A stretch of DNA of 64,000 nt from Thiotrichaceae bacterium (GCA_023144895.1 JAGLEV010000027.1:1-64000); one strand, 5' to 3'; positions 7,117 to 15,420 are shown, numbered from the stretch's first letter. Numbers and translations are program-made. The notes: generated by a model from the letters alone, not told the origin.

Positions 7117-7129
7117 TCAAGACAAAAAA

Positions 7130-7168
7130 AAGCCCATCATAATAGATAGAGGTCTATATGATGAGCTT
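7130..7168. terminator. Hairpin terminator between aroB and the peptide locus
   Basis: An 11-base-pair stem with one mismatch (7130-7140 with 7158-7168) is flanked on its left by eight A residues, which read as a T-run on the minus strand. It can end the minus-strand peptide operon and perhaps aroB. The rest of 7117-7390 shows no gene. Confidence 0.65.
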
Positions 7169-7390
7169 TGGACTATAGCAGGGTGTCAAAATATTACTAC
7201 CTTAGCCTCCATCCACCTAGCGTTGGGGATTGTCTTGTTCTAAGTGTTTAGAAAAAACTACACACTTATGCAATGATAATCCCGTAACCTTTGATCAATG
7301 TCAACAAACTGAAATATTTTATTATATTATAAAATATTAATATAAGCTTACTTAGAGTCACATAAAACCTGAAATCCAGTAGCATAAGAC

Positions 7391-8533
7391 CTACGTGGGA
7401 AATGTAATAGGGTGTCTGGTTTCTCTTGCTGATATGGTGTCGGGATCAGATTTCATAGACTTTTCCAAGGCAGGATTGTTGTCGCTATGAAAGTTAAGAA
7501 TTGAATATTGATGGTTATTTTCTGCATTATTTATAATTTTAGGACATTTGTGGTCAGCAATGCCGAGCATTCCAACCGATGAATATCCAGAGCCTAAACA
7601 GCCTCCATTACATTTTGATTTGTAGCGACAACTATTGCATGTTTTATTATTAATAGTATCTGTTATAATTGATTTATGAACTTTAGATTTAAGTATTTCT
7701 TCTAAGCTTGACTCATTTAAATTACCAGAAGGTAAATGTTCATAACAAGTACATGCTAAAACATCTAAGTTTGGGTATATGTATATTTTCTGAGTCCCTG
7801 ATCCACAATTTTTTACTGTATTTATTTCATTTAGTTGCTTATCTGAAATTAAATCCAATACTTTAAAATCAAATTGTTTTTGTATAAAAATGTTTTTTTG
7901 AAGTTTGTGTTCTTGGATGTACTCAACTAAATTATTCCAGTCTTCTGTGCTAAGGTAGTGACTGCTATCTTTAGCTCTTCCAGCATAAGATACTCTTTTT
8001 ATATTCCATCTCTTAAAGCCAGCTTTAATTAATTTACTCTGAAGAGAAAGAAACTCATTTTTAAATTTAACTGAGGTTACAGTAGTTGAAATAATAACCT
8101 CACATTTTTTAAGTTGTGATAATTTTTCTATTGTTAATATTGATTTATTAAAAGAGCTTTCTCCTCTTATTAAGTCATGAAAAACATCATCCCCATCAAT
8201 AGAAATTTGAACACTTATTTTTGGTATATTCTCTATTAATTCAGAAAAAGAGCTCGTCAAAAAATAATTAGTTGTACCGTTTGAATTAATAATAATATTT
8301 TCAAAATATTGAGAAGCCAATGATAAAACTTCATGAAAGTTTTTCAATATTGTTGGCTCACCACCAGAAAGTATTAACTGAACTGCTGAGGGGAAATTTT
8401 TCAAAATTTCCTTAAAAACATGATCAAAATTCTCTAAAGAAACTTTATTATTATTTTTTACTGAATAATCTCGAATACAATAAAAGCACTTTAAATTGCA
8501 TCCTTTCGTTAATAAAACATATACTTGGTTCAT
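7391..8533 (-). CDS. Radical SAM/SPASM peptide-maturase-like protein
   Basis: The 380-residue protein has the radical SAM CxxxCxxC motif at Cys12, Cys16 and Cys19 (GCNLKCFYC) and a GGEP SAM-binding motif at 57-60. Its SPASM domain has Cys243, Cys261, Cys263, then Cys299-x2-Cys302-x5-Cys308-x3-Cys312 and Cys330, which can hold two extra iron-sulfur clusters. This is the architecture of RiPP peptide maturases and sulfatase maturases; no sulfatase is nearby, and a short peptide gene opens the same operon. It is the last gene, seven bases after the oxygenase stop. The ATG at 8533 is preferred over TTG at 8536. A tail of about 35 residues after the SPASM domain has no counterpart I recognise. The substrate is inferred. 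Confidence 0.85.
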   Translation of the reverse strand: MNQVYVLLTKGCNLKCFYCIRDYSVKNNNKVSLENFDHVFKEILKNFPSAVQLILSGGEPTILKNFHEVLSLASQYFENIIINSNGTTNYFLTSSFSELIENIPKISVQISIDGDDVFHDLIRGESSFNKSILTIEKLSQLKKCEVIISTTVTSVKFKNEFLSLQSKLIKAGFKRWNIKRVSYAGRAKDSSHYLSTEDWNNLVEYIQEHKLQKNIFIQKQFDFKVLDLISDKQLNEINTVKNCGSGTQKIYIYPNLDVLACTCYEHLPSGNLNESSLEEILKSKVHKSIITDTINNKTCNSCRYKSKCNGGCLGSGYSSVGMLGIADHKCPKIINNAENNHQYSILNFHSDNNPALEKSMKSDPDTISARETRHPITFPT

Positions 8534-8540
8534 CAAAGCT

Positions 8541-9467
8541 TTACTCTAGTTCTATTTTGTATTTAGTCTTAATAGCTTTTCTTTCAATACAGCTAAGAAG
8601 GTCATTATCAATCTTAGTTTCCTTTATTAATTTACAAAGGTGATCTATATTTTTTTGGAGAGATTTCTTTGTAAAATTATAAAGAGGCTTTTCCCCAATC
8701 TCTGGGAAATTGTTGTCAATAATTTCAGCTATTACTTCTTTTAATTTAATGGGATTTAAACTTAAAGAGAGATGGATCGAACTATTTTGTTCTGTAAAGG
8801 CATAATGCCAAACTCCTTTTGGAATAAAAAGTAAATCACCTGCTGTAGTAGTTATATCTATAAAGTCTTTTTTATTATCAATATCAGGTTTTTTCTGTTT
8901 ATCAATTGTTTCATTAGTATAAGCTTTCTCCTTATTGTATATTTTCCAATGTTTTGTACCATGTGTTTGAATAGCTAGGACATCCTTATAATCAAAATGA
9001 AGATTTATACCTGTAGTTTTATTATGAGCATAATATAAATTCACGTTCGTATCAGCCAAAAATAGTTCTGATAAGTTATCAGCCAAATCTCTAATTTCTT
9101 GATCAAATATTTGTAGTTTATTTACTACTAAGGTATCACCTTTGGCAATTCTAAATAAAATATTTTTTAAAGATAATTCATTTTCTAAAGCATTTGAATA
9201 TTTATTTGTTGTTCTTTCTATTAAGTCTCTTTTACTAGTCGTGCTATTAAAATTATTTACTGATACATAGGGATCTATTAGTAATGAATTATTTAAATAA
9301 TTATTTAACTTTTCTATAGAAAACAGGAAAGAAACAGTCTCTTTATTTAAAGTAATTTTTTTTACTTGCCTATTTTCTATGCTTTCTTTTAATTCTTTAC
9401 ACTGGTTATCTGTAAAAAAATTGTTTAACATATAACTCGAATTCCATTTTTTATAAGTGTTGTACAT
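8541..9467 (-). CDS. JmjC/cupin_4-type Fe(II)/2-oxoglutarate oxygenase
   Basis: The protein has 308 residues from ATG 9467, or 296 from ATG 9431. The core follows the cupin_4 (ribosomal oxygenase RoxA-like) pattern: an iron-binding H-x-D in NLHFDYKDVLAIQTHG (His157, Asp159 in the longer form), HWKIY, and GDLLFIPKGVWHYAF giving the third ligand His221. Such enzymes hydroxylate protein or peptide side chains. Placed between the LRR and radical SAM genes, it is a plausible second tailoring enzyme for the 53-residue peptide; that role is inferred. The start at 9467 overlaps the LRR gene by 43 bases, the start at 9431 by only seven. Confidence 0.8.
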   Translation of the reverse strand: MYNTYKKWNSSYMLNNFFTDNQCKELKESIENRQVKKITLNKETVSFLFSIEKLNNYLNNSLLIDPYVSVNNFNSTTSKRDLIERTTNKYSNALENELSLKNILFRIAKGDTLVVNKLQIFDQEIRDLADNLSELFLADTNVNLYYAHNKTTGINLHFDYKDVLAIQTHGTKHWKIYNKEKAYTNETIDKQKKPDIDNKKDFIDITTTAGDLLFIPKGVWHYAFTEQNSSIHLSLSLNPIKLKEVIAEIIDNNFPEIGEKPLYNFTKKSLQKNIDHLCKLIKETKIDNDLLSCIERKAIKTKYKIELE

Positions 9468-10594
9468 ATTTCTTCATTAGTAAGGTTGCTAGTTAGCCCT
9501 CTAATATCAATATATTTTAATTTAGGCATAGAAAAAATCCGTTCATCAAGTTGATCTATATTTAGATAGCTTAAGCAGAGAAATTCTAATTTTTTTAGCG
9601 AATAGATGTATTCAGGTAAAGCTTTAATTTTTTTTATTCTCCCTATATTCAGATACTTTAGACTTGGGAATGATTTAGCATCTAAATAAAAAGAATCAAA
9701 GTTATTATTAAATAAAACTAATTTTTCTAACTCTGGAAATATATCTTCTATAATAAGTGTTTGTGCCCTATTTTTAGATATGTTTAAAACTTTCAATTTT
9801 TTTGGAAGGTTTGAGCCAGCTATGACATTCATAATATTGTTAGCAGTTAAATTTAAAACCTCAAGATTTATTAGTTTAGAAAAATTAGGGACTTTTTGTA
9901 AACTATTAGATATTAAATGTAACCTTTTTAATTTATAGTTTTGTTTCTTTATTCTTATATCAGAGTTTTTTATTTTTGCCCTATTGATAATTAAAGAATA
10001 TGATGTACACTCTTCTAAAAAAGAAGAAACATATTTATGGTTTTTTTCAGACCGTAATATAGAATAAAAACCATTTTTTATTGATGTTGTGTCAGTTATC
10101 TCGATATTTATAGGGGTAACGCTATCTTTTGAATCAAAAACAGCATTGTCAATTAAACATTTATAGCTTGATTTATTAACAACTTGCTGTTTAGTATAAA
10201 ATGAAAACAACTCAAATTCTGAAAAACTTGAACCTTCATATAACTTGAAAGGAAAAATGTAATATTTTAATGATAGGTATTTGCAGTAATATTTAATCTG
10301 TTTAAATATAGGAAGGTCTAGCTGAATAGGTTCATTAGTGCCTAATATATAAATAAACAGTTTAAAACCTATAAAATTTTTGCTTGAACCAAGAGTTTCA
10401 AAAAAAACAACCCAATCATTATTTAATTCTTCTTCTCCAAAAACAGGAATAAAACAAATAAGTTCACCATTTACTGAAGGTTTAGATGAGTTGATTTTAT
10501 ATTTTTCAATAGAGTAAATATCTTTATTTGTGAAGCAATTAAATAATTTAATTTTTTCATAGATCCAAGTTATTTTGTTAGAATAAAAAATCAT
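9425..10594 (-). CDS. Leucine-rich repeat protein of the peptide locus
   Basis: The protein has 389 residues from the ATG at 10594, which has GGAA at good spacing; an in-frame TTG at 10606 is less likely. The first 220 residues match no family I know and are rich in Phe, Tyr, Ile and Lys. About six leucine-rich repeats follow from residue 222 to 366 (LKRLHLISNSLQKVP, LEVLNLTANNIMNV, LKVLNISKNRAQTL, LEKLVLFNNNFDSF, LKYLNIGRIKKIKALP). No signal peptide or transmembrane helix is evident. Lying between the precursor-like gene and two modifying enzymes, it could bind the leader or scaffold the enzymes. That is inference. Confidence 0.75.
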   Translation of the reverse strand: MIFYSNKITWIYEKIKLFNCFTNKDIYSIEKYKINSSKPSVNGELICFIPVFGEEELNNDWVVFFETLGSSKNFIGFKLFIYILGTNEPIQLDLPIFKQIKYYCKYLSLKYYIFPFKLYEGSSFSEFELFSFYTKQQVVNKSSYKCLIDNAVFDSKDSVTPINIEITDTTSIKNGFYSILRSEKNHKYVSSFLEECTSYSLIINRAKIKNSDIRIKKQNYKLKRLHLISNSLQKVPNFSKLINLEVLNLTANNIMNVIAGSNLPKKLKVLNISKNRAQTLIIEDIFPELEKLVLFNNNFDSFYLDAKSFPSLKYLNIGRIKKIKALPEYIYSLKKLEFLCLSYLNIDQLDERIFSMPKLKYIDIRGLTSNLTNEEICTTLIKNGIRVIC

Positions 10595-10619
10595 TTTTGA
10601 TTCCAATATTTATAAGTAG

Positions 10620-10731
10620 CTTCTCTATATACAATATACTGCAAGCTATTATTTTTAATTGTTAGCTGTAGTATAATTAGAAATAACCAAAACCCATAGA
10701 GTCTTTATATATTTTGTCGTATATAGAGAAG
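10620..10731 (-). repeat. Inverted repeat between peptide gene and LRR gene
   Basis: A perfect 13-base inverted repeat (10620-10632 with 10719-10731, cttctctatatac) encloses a second, imperfect stem around 10638-10672. On the minus strand it lies in the 158-base spacer after the 53-codon gene and before the LRR gene. It could act as a partial terminator or RNA-stability element letting the small gene be expressed above the enzymes. No clear T-run follows. Confidence 0.6.
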
Positions 10732-10752
10732 TAGTTATTTATACTCTAGTAG

Positions 10753-10914
10753 TTAATCTGCTTCTCTCCAGCTTCCAAACATTTGTTCAAAATCTTTTTC
10801 TGATTTCACAGGTTTTTTCTCATCATTTGATAAGCTTTTTTTAATACAATTCATATTTGCATCTACTAATATAGTCTTTACTTCTTTTACATTTAGCGTA
10901 ACTTCATTCTTCAT
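10753..10914 (-). CDS. Putative RiPP precursor peptide, 53 residues
   Basis: This short gene begins at ATG 10914 behind a strong GGAG site seven bases upstream and ends with TAA at 10753. The peptide is charged and Lys/Glu/Asn-rich (MKNEVTLNVKEVKTILVDAN at the start), carries one Cys at 23, and ends with DFEQMFGSWREAD. The last eight residues hold Phe46, Trp49, Arg50 and the acidic Glu51 and Asp53. It has no transmembrane helix or Sec signal. It is the first gene of the minus-strand run that continues with LRR, oxygenase and radical SAM genes, the usual place and size for a modified-peptide precursor. Leader and core boundaries cannot be fixed: the aromatic tail or the Cys23 region could be the modified part. 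Confidence 0.75.
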   Translation of the reverse strand: MKNEVTLNVKEVKTILVDANMNCIKKSLSNDEKKPVKSEKDFEQMFGSWREAD

Positions 10915-11278
10915 GAACTATCTCCATTATTTAATACATTTTAAAAAATTAGAAATCAAAAACTATTTCTTTGCAACTAAGTAGCTACTTAAAAATACTA
11001 ATTTTTTCCGACACACAGTTTATTATCATTATTATGGTAAGCGTATGGAATACCTAACAGTTTATTAGGCAGCTTCTGCATAACAGTTAGTATAGCCAAA
11101 ACTATATTCTTTTGAATTTATTGAAAATTAATTTAATCTTGGTAGCCCTAACAGAATTAGATAGCTTTCACTTATTTCAGTTAGAGCCACTAATCACTTA
11201 AATGCAGTTTACTACATTTTGCCTAAAATTCAAGCACTATATAAGTGTCTAGATTCAATTCATATGACCATCATGGAA

Positions 11279-11425
11279 GGAGGCGGAAGAAATGGCGCTG
11301 GAATAACCCTACGCCAAAGAATTTCATGCTATGTGAGAAGAATGTTATCTTTTTCTAAAAAAGTGGTTTGACATTATGGGGCAACCAAGCTATTTATAAC
11401 TACCAAGTTATGCACTTCACTGTTG
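11279..11425 (+). pseudogene. Decayed IS1-family transposase fragment
   Basis: Reading frame 11291 onward gives ITLRQRISCYVRRMLSFSKK, which resembles the C-terminal part of IS1-type transposases. A TGA at 11369-11371 interrupts it and the frame shifts near 11395. No start, no intact terminal repeats and no partner frame are seen. It lies just outside the peptide locus and supports past transposition there. The remaining sequence from 10915 to 11474 is AT-rich and shows no other gene; it should contain the promoter of the peptide operon. Confidence 0.5.
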
Positions 11426-11474
11426 AATCTGCCTTATTATTTAACAGTTATCATCAGTATGAGCTGAATTAAAA

Positions 11475-13424: not shown

Positions 13425-13877
13425 TTAAGTTTTCCGTTTAGGTCGGCTTTTATAGGTAACAATACCGCGAACAATTTCACTATACGGAATTGTTTCGATA
13501 CTGCCATAGTATTTGATCGCGAGAGTCAGTATAGCGAAAATATTATTATCTGCTGTCGCCAATAAACCCTGTTTCACCAGCAAAGATTCCAGTTGCAAAC
13601 AACCACCTGCTTGCACTTGTAATTCTTTATTATGTGGCAAAGGACCTTCAATGGTCACAACTTTTAGTGAAAAACGTGAGTTATGACGCATCATATTAAG
13701 AAACCGACGACATTGTGCTAATTCTTGGTCACCTAAACAACCTACTGCTTCACGGGTAGCGATGAGTTTGCGTTCTTTTCTCTCACAATCACAACGACGA
13801 TTATTTAATGCTTTTTCAAACACACAGCGTCGATGATTAACTTGCTTATAGACCGCACGGTAAGCATCTTCATCCAT
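13425..13877 (-). CDS. Cysteine-rich conserved protein in the dsrS-cysG operon
   Basis: The 150-residue cytoplasmic protein has Cys18, Cys29, Cys31, Cys47 and Cys56 in its first 60 residues (RRCVFEKALNNRRCDCERKER), then Cys93. That spacing could bind a metal or iron-sulfur cluster, but it matches no named motif. A later segment reads KYYGSIETIPYSEIVRGI. I do not recognise a named family. It is tightly packed, 26 bases after one gene and three bases before cysG, which ties it to the siroheme/Dsr context. The function is unknown. Confidence 0.7.
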   Translation of the reverse strand: MDEDAYRAVYKQVNHRRCVFEKALNNRRCDCERKERKLIATREAVGCLGDQELAQCRRFLNMMRHNSRFSLKVVTIEGPLPHNKELQVQAGGCLQLESLLVKQGLLATADNNIFAILTLAIKYYGSIETIPYSEIVRGIVTYKSRPKRKT

Positions 13878-14173: not shown

Positions 14174-15295
14174 TTATGCCATTAGATCACTAATCAATGC
14201 TAATAAAGGTACAGTTACTGGCTTTAATCGACGGCGCATGACGGATCCAACAGAATCATTCCCTGCAAATATGGGGATTAAAGTGTCTTCTCCAAGCTGT
14301 CCAAGCATTAAAATGCTTTTTAGTAATGCTATATCTCTCGCTTCCAGCACGGATAATAAGCGGACTAAGTCTTTAGGGCACTCTGTATTCTCTTTATCAC
14401 AATACTGCTCTACACGCTCTGCCGCCCGCTCAATTTCACGAACTCCACGAGTCTCTGCAAAGGTTATATCAACTTGTTCCGATAGCGCAATAAATAAGGC
14501 AATCACTACCTCTTGATCAACAGGTTTAGCTAAGGCTTTCTGCACGGTATACAGCCAGTTTTGCCCTGATTCTGTTAATAGTTCACATAAAGTATTGGCA
14601 TAGATATTACCCTTTTTTCTAAGGGCTTGACTGGCACTTGCAATCCTATTAAGACAAGGATGCTCAGACTGCTTTGCAGGTAAATCATTTTTCGAGAAAC
14701 AAAAACCAACAAAATAGGGATTTTTACGTTGAGCAGTACGCCATAACTTTTCTTTTTGTGCTGAGGTAATCAGCTTACCCTGCAAACAAAGCTTAATGGT
14801 TATTACAACATTGCTTGGATGCTCTTCAAAAGGCAGAAACTCTAGTAAGTACTCAGCCAGCTCCTTACCTAAGTCACCAGCCACCACATCGGGATAATGC
14901 AATAAGCGTCGTCCAACTTCTTCCGTTGGATGCGCCCACCATGCTCGTTTTGCTAGCTGATGGGTTAATGCAGGACTATGAACCATGGCAACAATGGCTT
15001 CTGGCTCACCCAGTAGCAACATCTGCTCTACATTATTATTTGTATGTCCCATTCGCGTCCAGCGCTTAATGAAAATAGGGTAACCCGCAGGTGATCCTGT
15101 CACCTTACTCGCAATCATTTCACGCACCCAACGCAAGTATTGATCATCATTACTGGTTGGGTTGAGTTGCACCTTCGCCTCACCTTGCTCTGTTAAGGCG
15201 TATACCACCATCGTTGCTTCATTAATCCGTATCGCATAAAGGTCTTGCGCTAGCAAAACATTCATTCTTAAATTGTCTTCATTGGAAAGTTGCAT
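14174..15295 (-). CDS. dsrS: DsrS-like protein of sulfur oxidation
   Basis: The 373-residue soluble protein resembles DsrS, encoded at the end of the dsr cluster of Allochromatium vinosum and present in many sulfur oxidisers. Recognised blocks are YALTEQGEAKVQLNP, GYPIFIKRWTRMG, LLLGEPEAIVAMVHSPALT, AKRAWWAHPTEEVGRRLL and QRKNPYFVGF. DsrS is cytoplasmic and its biochemical function is not settled; family work links it to expression of the Dsr pathway. I prefer ATG 15295 to TTG 15301; neither has a clear ribosome binding site. It heads the operon dsrS, 78-residue gene, cysteine-rich gene, cysG. The identification is from memory of family motifs. Confidence 0.7.
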   Translation of the reverse strand: MQLSNEDNLRMNVLLAQDLYAIRINEATMVVYALTEQGEAKVQLNPTSNDDQYLRWVREMIASKVTGSPAGYPIFIKRWTRMGHTNNNVEQMLLLGEPEAIVAMVHSPALTHQLAKRAWWAHPTEEVGRRLLHYPDVVAGDLGKELAEYLLEFLPFEEHPSNVVITIKLCLQGKLITSAQKEKLWRTAQRKNPYFVGFCFSKNDLPAKQSEHPCLNRIASASQALRKKGNIYANTLCELLTESGQNWLYTVQKALAKPVDQEVVIALFIALSEQVDITFAETRGVREIERAAERVEQYCDKENTECPKDLVRLLSVLEARDIALLKSILMLGQLGEDTLIPIFAGNDSVGSVMRRRLKPVTVPLLALISDLMA

Positions 15296-15420
15296 AGTCA
15301 AGAGGCTAATAAATGTGGAAAAGATTTCTAGTCCTAGGCTTATTGTTGACTAGTGCCTAAGGAAACACAATACCCTTATCGAGAGGTTTATCATTTTTTA
15401 TTCACATCTTACCAACAGCC

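Follow-up and report, generated by a model that had tools for sequence, protein, structure and literature searches.

A putative RiPP-type cassette combining radical SAM/SPASM and JmjC_2 enzymes with an LRR protein in a Thiotrichaceae bacterium

The described systems closest to the locus reported here belong to the ribosomally synthesized and post-translationally modified peptides (RiPPs). The triceptides are products of three-residue cyclophane-forming enzymes (3-CyFEs; XncB, OscB, and MscB), a group reported to connect Phe with Ser, and Trp with Arg, Asn, or Asp, from residue i to residue i+2 (PMC11002830). In the biphenomycin and pbs systems, the JmjC/cupin enzymes BipG and PbsQ act on RiPP precursors as ornithine hydroxylases (PMC12707348, PMC12257519); PF08007 (JmjC_2) proteins have also been noted in RiPP-like contexts (PMC12710340). 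Darobactin and dynobactin, finally, are represented by DarE and DynA, gammaproteobacterial radical S-adenosylmethionine (rSAM) enzymes with a SPASM domain. Here, we examine a four-gene cassette within 64,000 nucleotides of DNA from a Thiotrichaceae bacterium (GCA_023144895.1, JAGLEV010000027.1:1-64000; the whole stretch is hereafter called the window), which encodes a short peptide, a leucine-rich repeat (LRR) protein, a JmjC_2 oxygenase, and an rSAM/SPASM enzyme. From sequence comparison, we consider it, with a probability of about 0.78, a horizontally acquired RiPP-type cassette in which the rSAM/SPASM enzyme would cross-link, and the JmjC_2 oxygenase hydroxylate, a conserved tail of the precursor peptide.

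How is the cassette built, and where does it sit? The four open reading frames (ORFs) lie on the minus strand at 7391-10914, co-oriented and tightly packed as a preliminary description of this DNA had claimed, and follow one another along transcription as peptide, LRR protein, JmjC_2/cupin oxygenase, and rSAM/SPASM enzyme. The LRR gene shares 43 bp with the JmjC gene, and a gap of 7 bp separates the JmjC gene from the rSAM gene. The strong ribosome binding site ascribed to the short gene is present (GGAGA, ~8 nt ahead of the ATG), as is the AT-richness ascribed to the unit: its G+C content is 26.3%, compared with a mean of 38.4% (sd 1.5, minimum 34.6%) for 3.5-kb stretches in the rest of the window. 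In those sibling genomes from the genus whose gene after aroB was readable, other genes follow aroB—mostly dGTPase-like ones, by our reading of their sequences—and the cassette is absent. No transfer RNA gene or att-like direct repeat was found at the edges of the AT-rich island. The cassette was apparently acquired horizontally.

Does this combination of genes recur? The rSAM enzyme has a relative in one other of 63 genomes from the family (G805; 37% identity, E 1.9e-47), and the neighborhood search around rSAM relatives that had been recommended for this locus finds the peptide, LRR, and oxygenase genes together there as well (locus L096). The preliminary description had named rSAM relatives that never sit beside a similar peptide or the oxygenase as the outcome that would speak against a RiPP; the L096 relative adjoins both, plus the LRR gene. 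Transcription at L096 runs from the peptide through the rSAM, JmjC_2, and nucleotidyltransferase-like genes to the LRR gene, which comes second in the window, and this recurrence of the same content in a different order favors functional linkage over a passively inherited block. The L096 block is also AT-rich, at 31% G+C versus 42-51% in its flanks. Across the two loci, the recurrence is clearer for the set of predicted gene functions than for the individual sequences.

What is conserved between the two precursors? They have in common the C-terminal tail FGSW[R/F]EAD, in which seven of eight residues are identical, while their leaders and remainder are unlike. The C-terminal residues are DFEQMFGSWREAD in the window peptide and EEFCDSFGSWFEADAC in that of L096; the corresponding peptide pattern is TTYGGNWSNTGGNNNGARGCNGAY. 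Among all 372 stop-to-stop frames in the 13.5-kb L096 locus, the 47-aa ORF beside the rSAM gene matches the window peptide best. The local alignment score of the pair was equaled in 2 of 1000 shuffles, a conservative figure because it ignores the shared C-terminal position and the rSAM-adjacent location of the ORF. Moreover, the tail is encoded by different codons at the two loci (its Ser codon is AGC in the window and TCA in L096), and conservation is therefore at the level of the protein. As in RiPP systems generally, a genetically encoded short precursor stands beside modifying enzymes, and its core is kept between separate clusters of like kind. Because sharp conservation between the precursors is confined to the tail, the tail is likely the shared substrate of the enzymes; residues 1 to ~41 would form the leader and the C-terminal F..xFGSWxEAD the modified core. 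The peptide has no domain assignment in Pfam or NCBIfam and no second copy in its own genome.

Table 1. Features of the window cassette and of the second locus, L096
Locus	Feature	Coordinates	Strand	Evidence and remarks
Window	Precursor peptide, 53 aa, MKNEVTLNVKEVKTILVDANMNCIKKSLSNDEKKPVKSEKDFEQMFGSWREAD	10753..10914	-	ORF; Shine-Dalgarno; homologous ORF in L096
Window	C-terminal motif FGSWREAD, likely core	10756..10779	-	Protein-level conservation, codons differ
Window	Hairpin with perfect 13-bp arms in the precursor-LRR intergenic region	10620..10731	-	Inverted repeat; RNA fold
Window	LRR protein, 389-393 aa	9425..10594 (ATG, best start) or ..10606 (TTG)	-	Pfam LRR_4 (9.1e-14), LRR_8
Window	JmjC_2/cupin 2-oxoglutarate-Fe(II) oxygenase, 308 aa	8541..9467	-	Pfam PF08007, E 3.6e-24
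Window	rSAM/SPASM peptide maturase, 380-381 aa	7391..8533 (ATG 8533) or ..8536	-	Pfam PF04055, PF13186
Window	AT-rich island	7117..11474	.	Between aroB and S24/cysG block; GC 24-27% in gene core
L096	Peptide, 47 aa	7257-7114		Directly upstream of rSAM gene; Shine-Dalgarno present
L096	rSAM	7073-6042		37% identical to window rSAM
L096	JmjC_2	to 5218		PF08007 9.9e-21
L096	Nucleotidyltransferase-like protein, 241 aa	4500-5225		GSAGR...DID stretch; no significant Pfam match; none in window cassette
L096	LRR protein	4496-3513		Last in transcription order

The window rSAM enzyme (Pfam E values of 4.5e-15 for Radical_SAM and 2.8e-6 for SPASM) bears the complete cysteine set claimed for it, namely CxxxCxxC, seven SPASM Cys, and one further Cys, all of them common to the L096 enzyme. 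In a phylogeny, the two form a clade (support 85/86) apart from DarE, MftC, PqqE, and the Mycetohabitans/Streptantibioticus pair described below. Among the NCBIfam families listed, the window enzyme reaches no cut-off: its best score is to DynA (90 bits vs. a cut-off of 450), the prokaryotic viperin model gives 48 bits vs. 180, and the best-scoring families for the window and L096 pair include the peptide maturases SkfB, PapB, MftC, and AlbA. What bond might such an enzyme form? In the tail, F-G-S is invariant, as are the W and E of a W-x-E triplet whose middle residue is R in the window and F in L096, a pattern consistent with cyclophane formation from i to i+2. By analogy with the 3-CyFEs, the enzyme would most likely introduce one or two C-C cross-links, each from an aromatic residue to the residue two places on, with Phe46-Ser48 and/or Trp49-Glu51 as candidates; the product would be an i to i+2 aryl-Cbeta cyclophane at FxS and/or WxE. 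With no Cys in the window tail, a thioether is an unlikely product, and the core Cys cross-links of sactipeptides and ranthipeptides would find no partner there; the sole Cys of the window peptide (residue 23) has no L096 counterpart.

The cassette resembles each of the described systems in part. Like triceptide loci, it is small and sets a SPASM rSAM enzyme beside a short precursor whose aromatic-X-X motifs (F-G-S and W-x-E in the core) lie close to the C terminus. However, the rSAM enzyme reaches no curated 3-CyFE family model (XyeB, GrrM, and FxsB are absent from its best 25 NCBIfam matches), and JmjC and LRR partners are not described for triceptides in the literature found. No triceptide precursor is known to us to end in FGSWxEAD. 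As in biphenomycin and pbs biosynthesis, JmjC and rSAM enzymes would meet on one RiPP precursor, but the B12-dependent rSAM enzyme, the multinuclear nonheme iron-dependent oxidative enzyme, the arginase, and the TldD protease of those clusters are all missing here, and neither the FHAFRF core nor ornithine hydroxylation applies. With darobactin and dynobactin, it has in common a gammaproteobacterial SPASM rSAM enzyme and a short, Trp-containing core; it differs in core sequence, in falling short of the DarE and DynA models, in the position of DarE elsewhere in the tree, and in the lack of an exporter at either locus.

The kinship of the rSAM enzyme with maturases such as PqqE and MftC speaks for another explanation, in which the tail is cut out to serve as a small redox cofactor or as a signal inside the cell, like pyrroloquinoline quinone or mycofactocin, rather than secreted as an antimicrobial. 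Here, the rSAM enzyme would bond Trp with Glu, oxidation of the product would be the task of the oxygenase, and its release that of shared proteases. The shortness and near-invariance of the tail and the absence of an adjacent exporter would suit such a product, but the distribution is sporadic, AT-rich, and accessory, neither a dehydrogenase nor a PqqD- or MftB-like partner is associated, and a grouping of the rSAM enzyme with MftC or PqqE is unsupported in the tree. We consider this explanation improbable.

Which residue might the oxygenase modify? Its JmjC iron triad, HxD...H (H157, D159, and H221), is invariant across an 18-sequence alignment, and its fold model (pLDDT 76) matches NO66, YxbC, MINA53, and YcfD; with the PF08007 assignment, these features mark it as a JmjC_2 ribosomal-oxygenase-like hydroxylase. 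Hydroxylation of Arg was considered and set aside, as the L096 peptide has Phe at that position. Since no Arg or His is common to both tails, the likelier target is acidic, aromatic, or Ser; hydroxylation most likely falls on a conserved residue of the core, for which Asp53, Glu51, Ser48, and Trp49 are the candidates. JmjC_2 relatives adjoin short or Cys-rich peptides, often together with exporters, in Acinetobacter, Escherichia coli, Kosakonia, and Streptomyces, and repeatedly on plasmids; thus, a peptide substrate is the default expectation for the window enzyme.

The LRR protein has an N-terminal domain without assignment, which is weakly similar to the L096 LRR protein, and its structure model is poor (mean pLDDT 47). 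Its most likely role is to scaffold the peptide or the enzymes, or to give the host protection. The rSAM domain starts at residue 7, leaving no room in that protein for a RiPP recognition element (RRE); the LRR protein may replace one and may equally be an immunity protein. Could it be the substrate itself? If the enzymes modified the LRR protein or another host protein, the short peptide would be only a regulatory or recognition subunit, which would agree with the LRR gene at both loci and with the habits of the JmjC enzymes FIH, NO66, and YcfD—the fold match includes two of these—which hydroxylate repeat or ribosomal proteins. Yet it is the peptide tail that is kept at seven of eight positions between the loci, while the LRR proteins are barely alike, and we give this idea very little weight. 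Much the same holds for a toxin-immunity or phage-defense unit, in which the modified peptide would stay in the cell and the LRR protein, joined at L096 by the nucleotidyltransferase-like protein, would serve in sensing or neutralization. A mobile, sporadic, exporter-free cassette would be in keeping with this, as would the resemblance of the rSAM enzyme to prokaryotic viperins (60 bits), a likeness common to many rSAM proteins; however, the JmjC and LRR proteins have no PADLOC match, the nucleotidyltransferase-like protein matches an oligonucleotide cyclase only weakly (E 0.027), and the peptide is charged rather than hydrophobic. Chance neighbors, or a decayed cassette with a spurious peptide ORF, are very unlikely, for although a lone 53-aa ORF is weak evidence at 26% G+C, the tail is conserved in different codons, Shine-Dalgarno sites stand at both loci, and, as a strongly contrary point, all four gene kinds recur at L096.

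Several observations weigh against a RiPP-type cassette whose enzymes act on the tail. No RRE, protease, or exporter was seen at the two loci; the missing adjacent protease and exporter had been remarked on for the window and hold at L096 too, where the nearby exbB-, exbD-, and msbA-like genes are, by our reading, ordinary household genes. Outside the repeats, the LRR pair is only weakly similar (8 of 1000 shuffles by local and 1 of 1000 by global alignment). The JmjC enzymes are 27% identical and are not resolved as sisters in their tree, where branches are long and the join of window and L096 is unsupported (31/50), so common descent of the cassette oxygenases is not established. The rSAM and JmjC enzymes are each of a common kind. 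Finally, the known loci number two, from one bacterial family, and searches of the class (369 genomes, E 1e-30), of an order within it (399 genomes), and of the phylum (399 genomes) revealed no relatives, although their loose first filter can miss some.

The other five genomes of the host genus contain no close relative of the rSAM enzyme, single-sequence scans with it returned nothing from collections of genome contigs and viral contigs, and searches of viral and plasmid collections with the peptide pattern and the L096 proteins yielded no third locus. A JmjC scan of genome contigs gave 45 loci, none with a similar rSAM gene nearby, apart from one borderline match ~6 kb off (L032).

Is the RiPP-type cassette proposed here a new one? 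The suspicion that no named RiPP class has this combination stands: the system goes unnamed among the families of NCBIfam, Pfam, and PADLOC, and no RiPP combining rSAM/SPASM, JmjC, and LRR proteins was found in the open-licence literature. The cassette is probably a new RiPP type, with known enzyme kinds in a new combination and a new core motif. More specifically, and doubtfully, it could define a new class with a Trp-Glu cross-link and a hydroxyl on an acidic or aromatic residue, an LRR protein in place of the RRE, and an intracellular product. A compact four-gene system with two members and an eight-residue target makes directly testable the type of bond formed by the rSAM enzyme, the residue that a JmjC enzyme hydroxylates where no Arg or His is shared, and the possibility that an LRR protein recognizes the peptide in the way commonly attributed to RRE domains. 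The system is also further evidence for JmjC_2 oxygenases as recurrent RiPP tailoring enzymes.

A further feature of the window cassette, absent from the preliminary description, is the hairpin that follows the precursor gene (fold energy -32.7 kcal/mol, z -3.55). It has no Rfam match, and an origin as a dispersed repeat (miniature inverted-repeat transposable element) was rejected, the 13-bp arm having no other exact copy in the genome. Between the precursor and rSAM genes of L096 there is no comparable structure (z -0.19). The hairpin perhaps dampens read-through from the precursor and could leave the precursor transcript in excess. Elsewhere in the window, two ORFs, at 14174-15301 (375 aa) and 13425-13877 (150 aa), match nothing in Pfam or NCBIfam above noise. 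With aprA and a sulfide-quinone-reductase-like gene in its genome, the host is probably a sulfur oxidizer. Nucleotidyltransferase genes also adjoin paired rSAM genes on Nocardia and Kitasatospora plasmids (L100 and L104).

The survey of JmjC_2 neighborhoods also turned up other cluster types. A second RiPP-like kind with rSAM/SPASM and JmjC_2 genes occurs in two distant genera, on a Mycetohabitans endofungorum plasmid (L007, 6031-9381) and in Streptantibioticus cattleyicolor (L018, 7331-12310); its precursors end in GC[IF]SN[PI]GGPSC, and extra 2-oxoglutarate-Fe oxygenases lie nearby. Like the window cassette, these clusters bring rSAM/SPASM, JmjC_2, and a short precursor together, but their rSAM enzyme is N-terminally extended, their JmjC protein is longer, with an extra C-terminal part, and no LRR protein was found; with another core and an rSAM enzyme distant in the tree, they were rejected as homologs. 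On an Acinetobacter baumannii plasmid (L023, 4478-9283), a short peptide with a double-glycine-like leader, likely a JmjC-modified bacteriocin, stands in a row with JmjC_2, HlyD, and peptidase-domain ABC transporter genes. E. coli plasmid pHUSEC41-3 (L006, 376-3592; ~25 similar plasmids) and Kosakonia (L028, 5526-8861) encode a ~230-aa protein followed by an ABC transporter and JmjC_2; the conserved Gly/Cys-rich tail of that protein is GCSGKGCGAGCSCNSR in Kosakonia and near-identical in E. coli, and the cluster has the look of a RiPP, as yet undescribed, that is carried by small mobilizable plasmids. Two Streptomyces plasmids (L021, 5568-8625; L022, 5739-8808) carry, in the same order, genes for a 43-49-aa peptide, JmjC_2, and an aldo/keto reductase. 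In IMG/VR contigs (L026/L027, 8115-9269), the JmjC_2 gene adjoins apparent phage structural genes.

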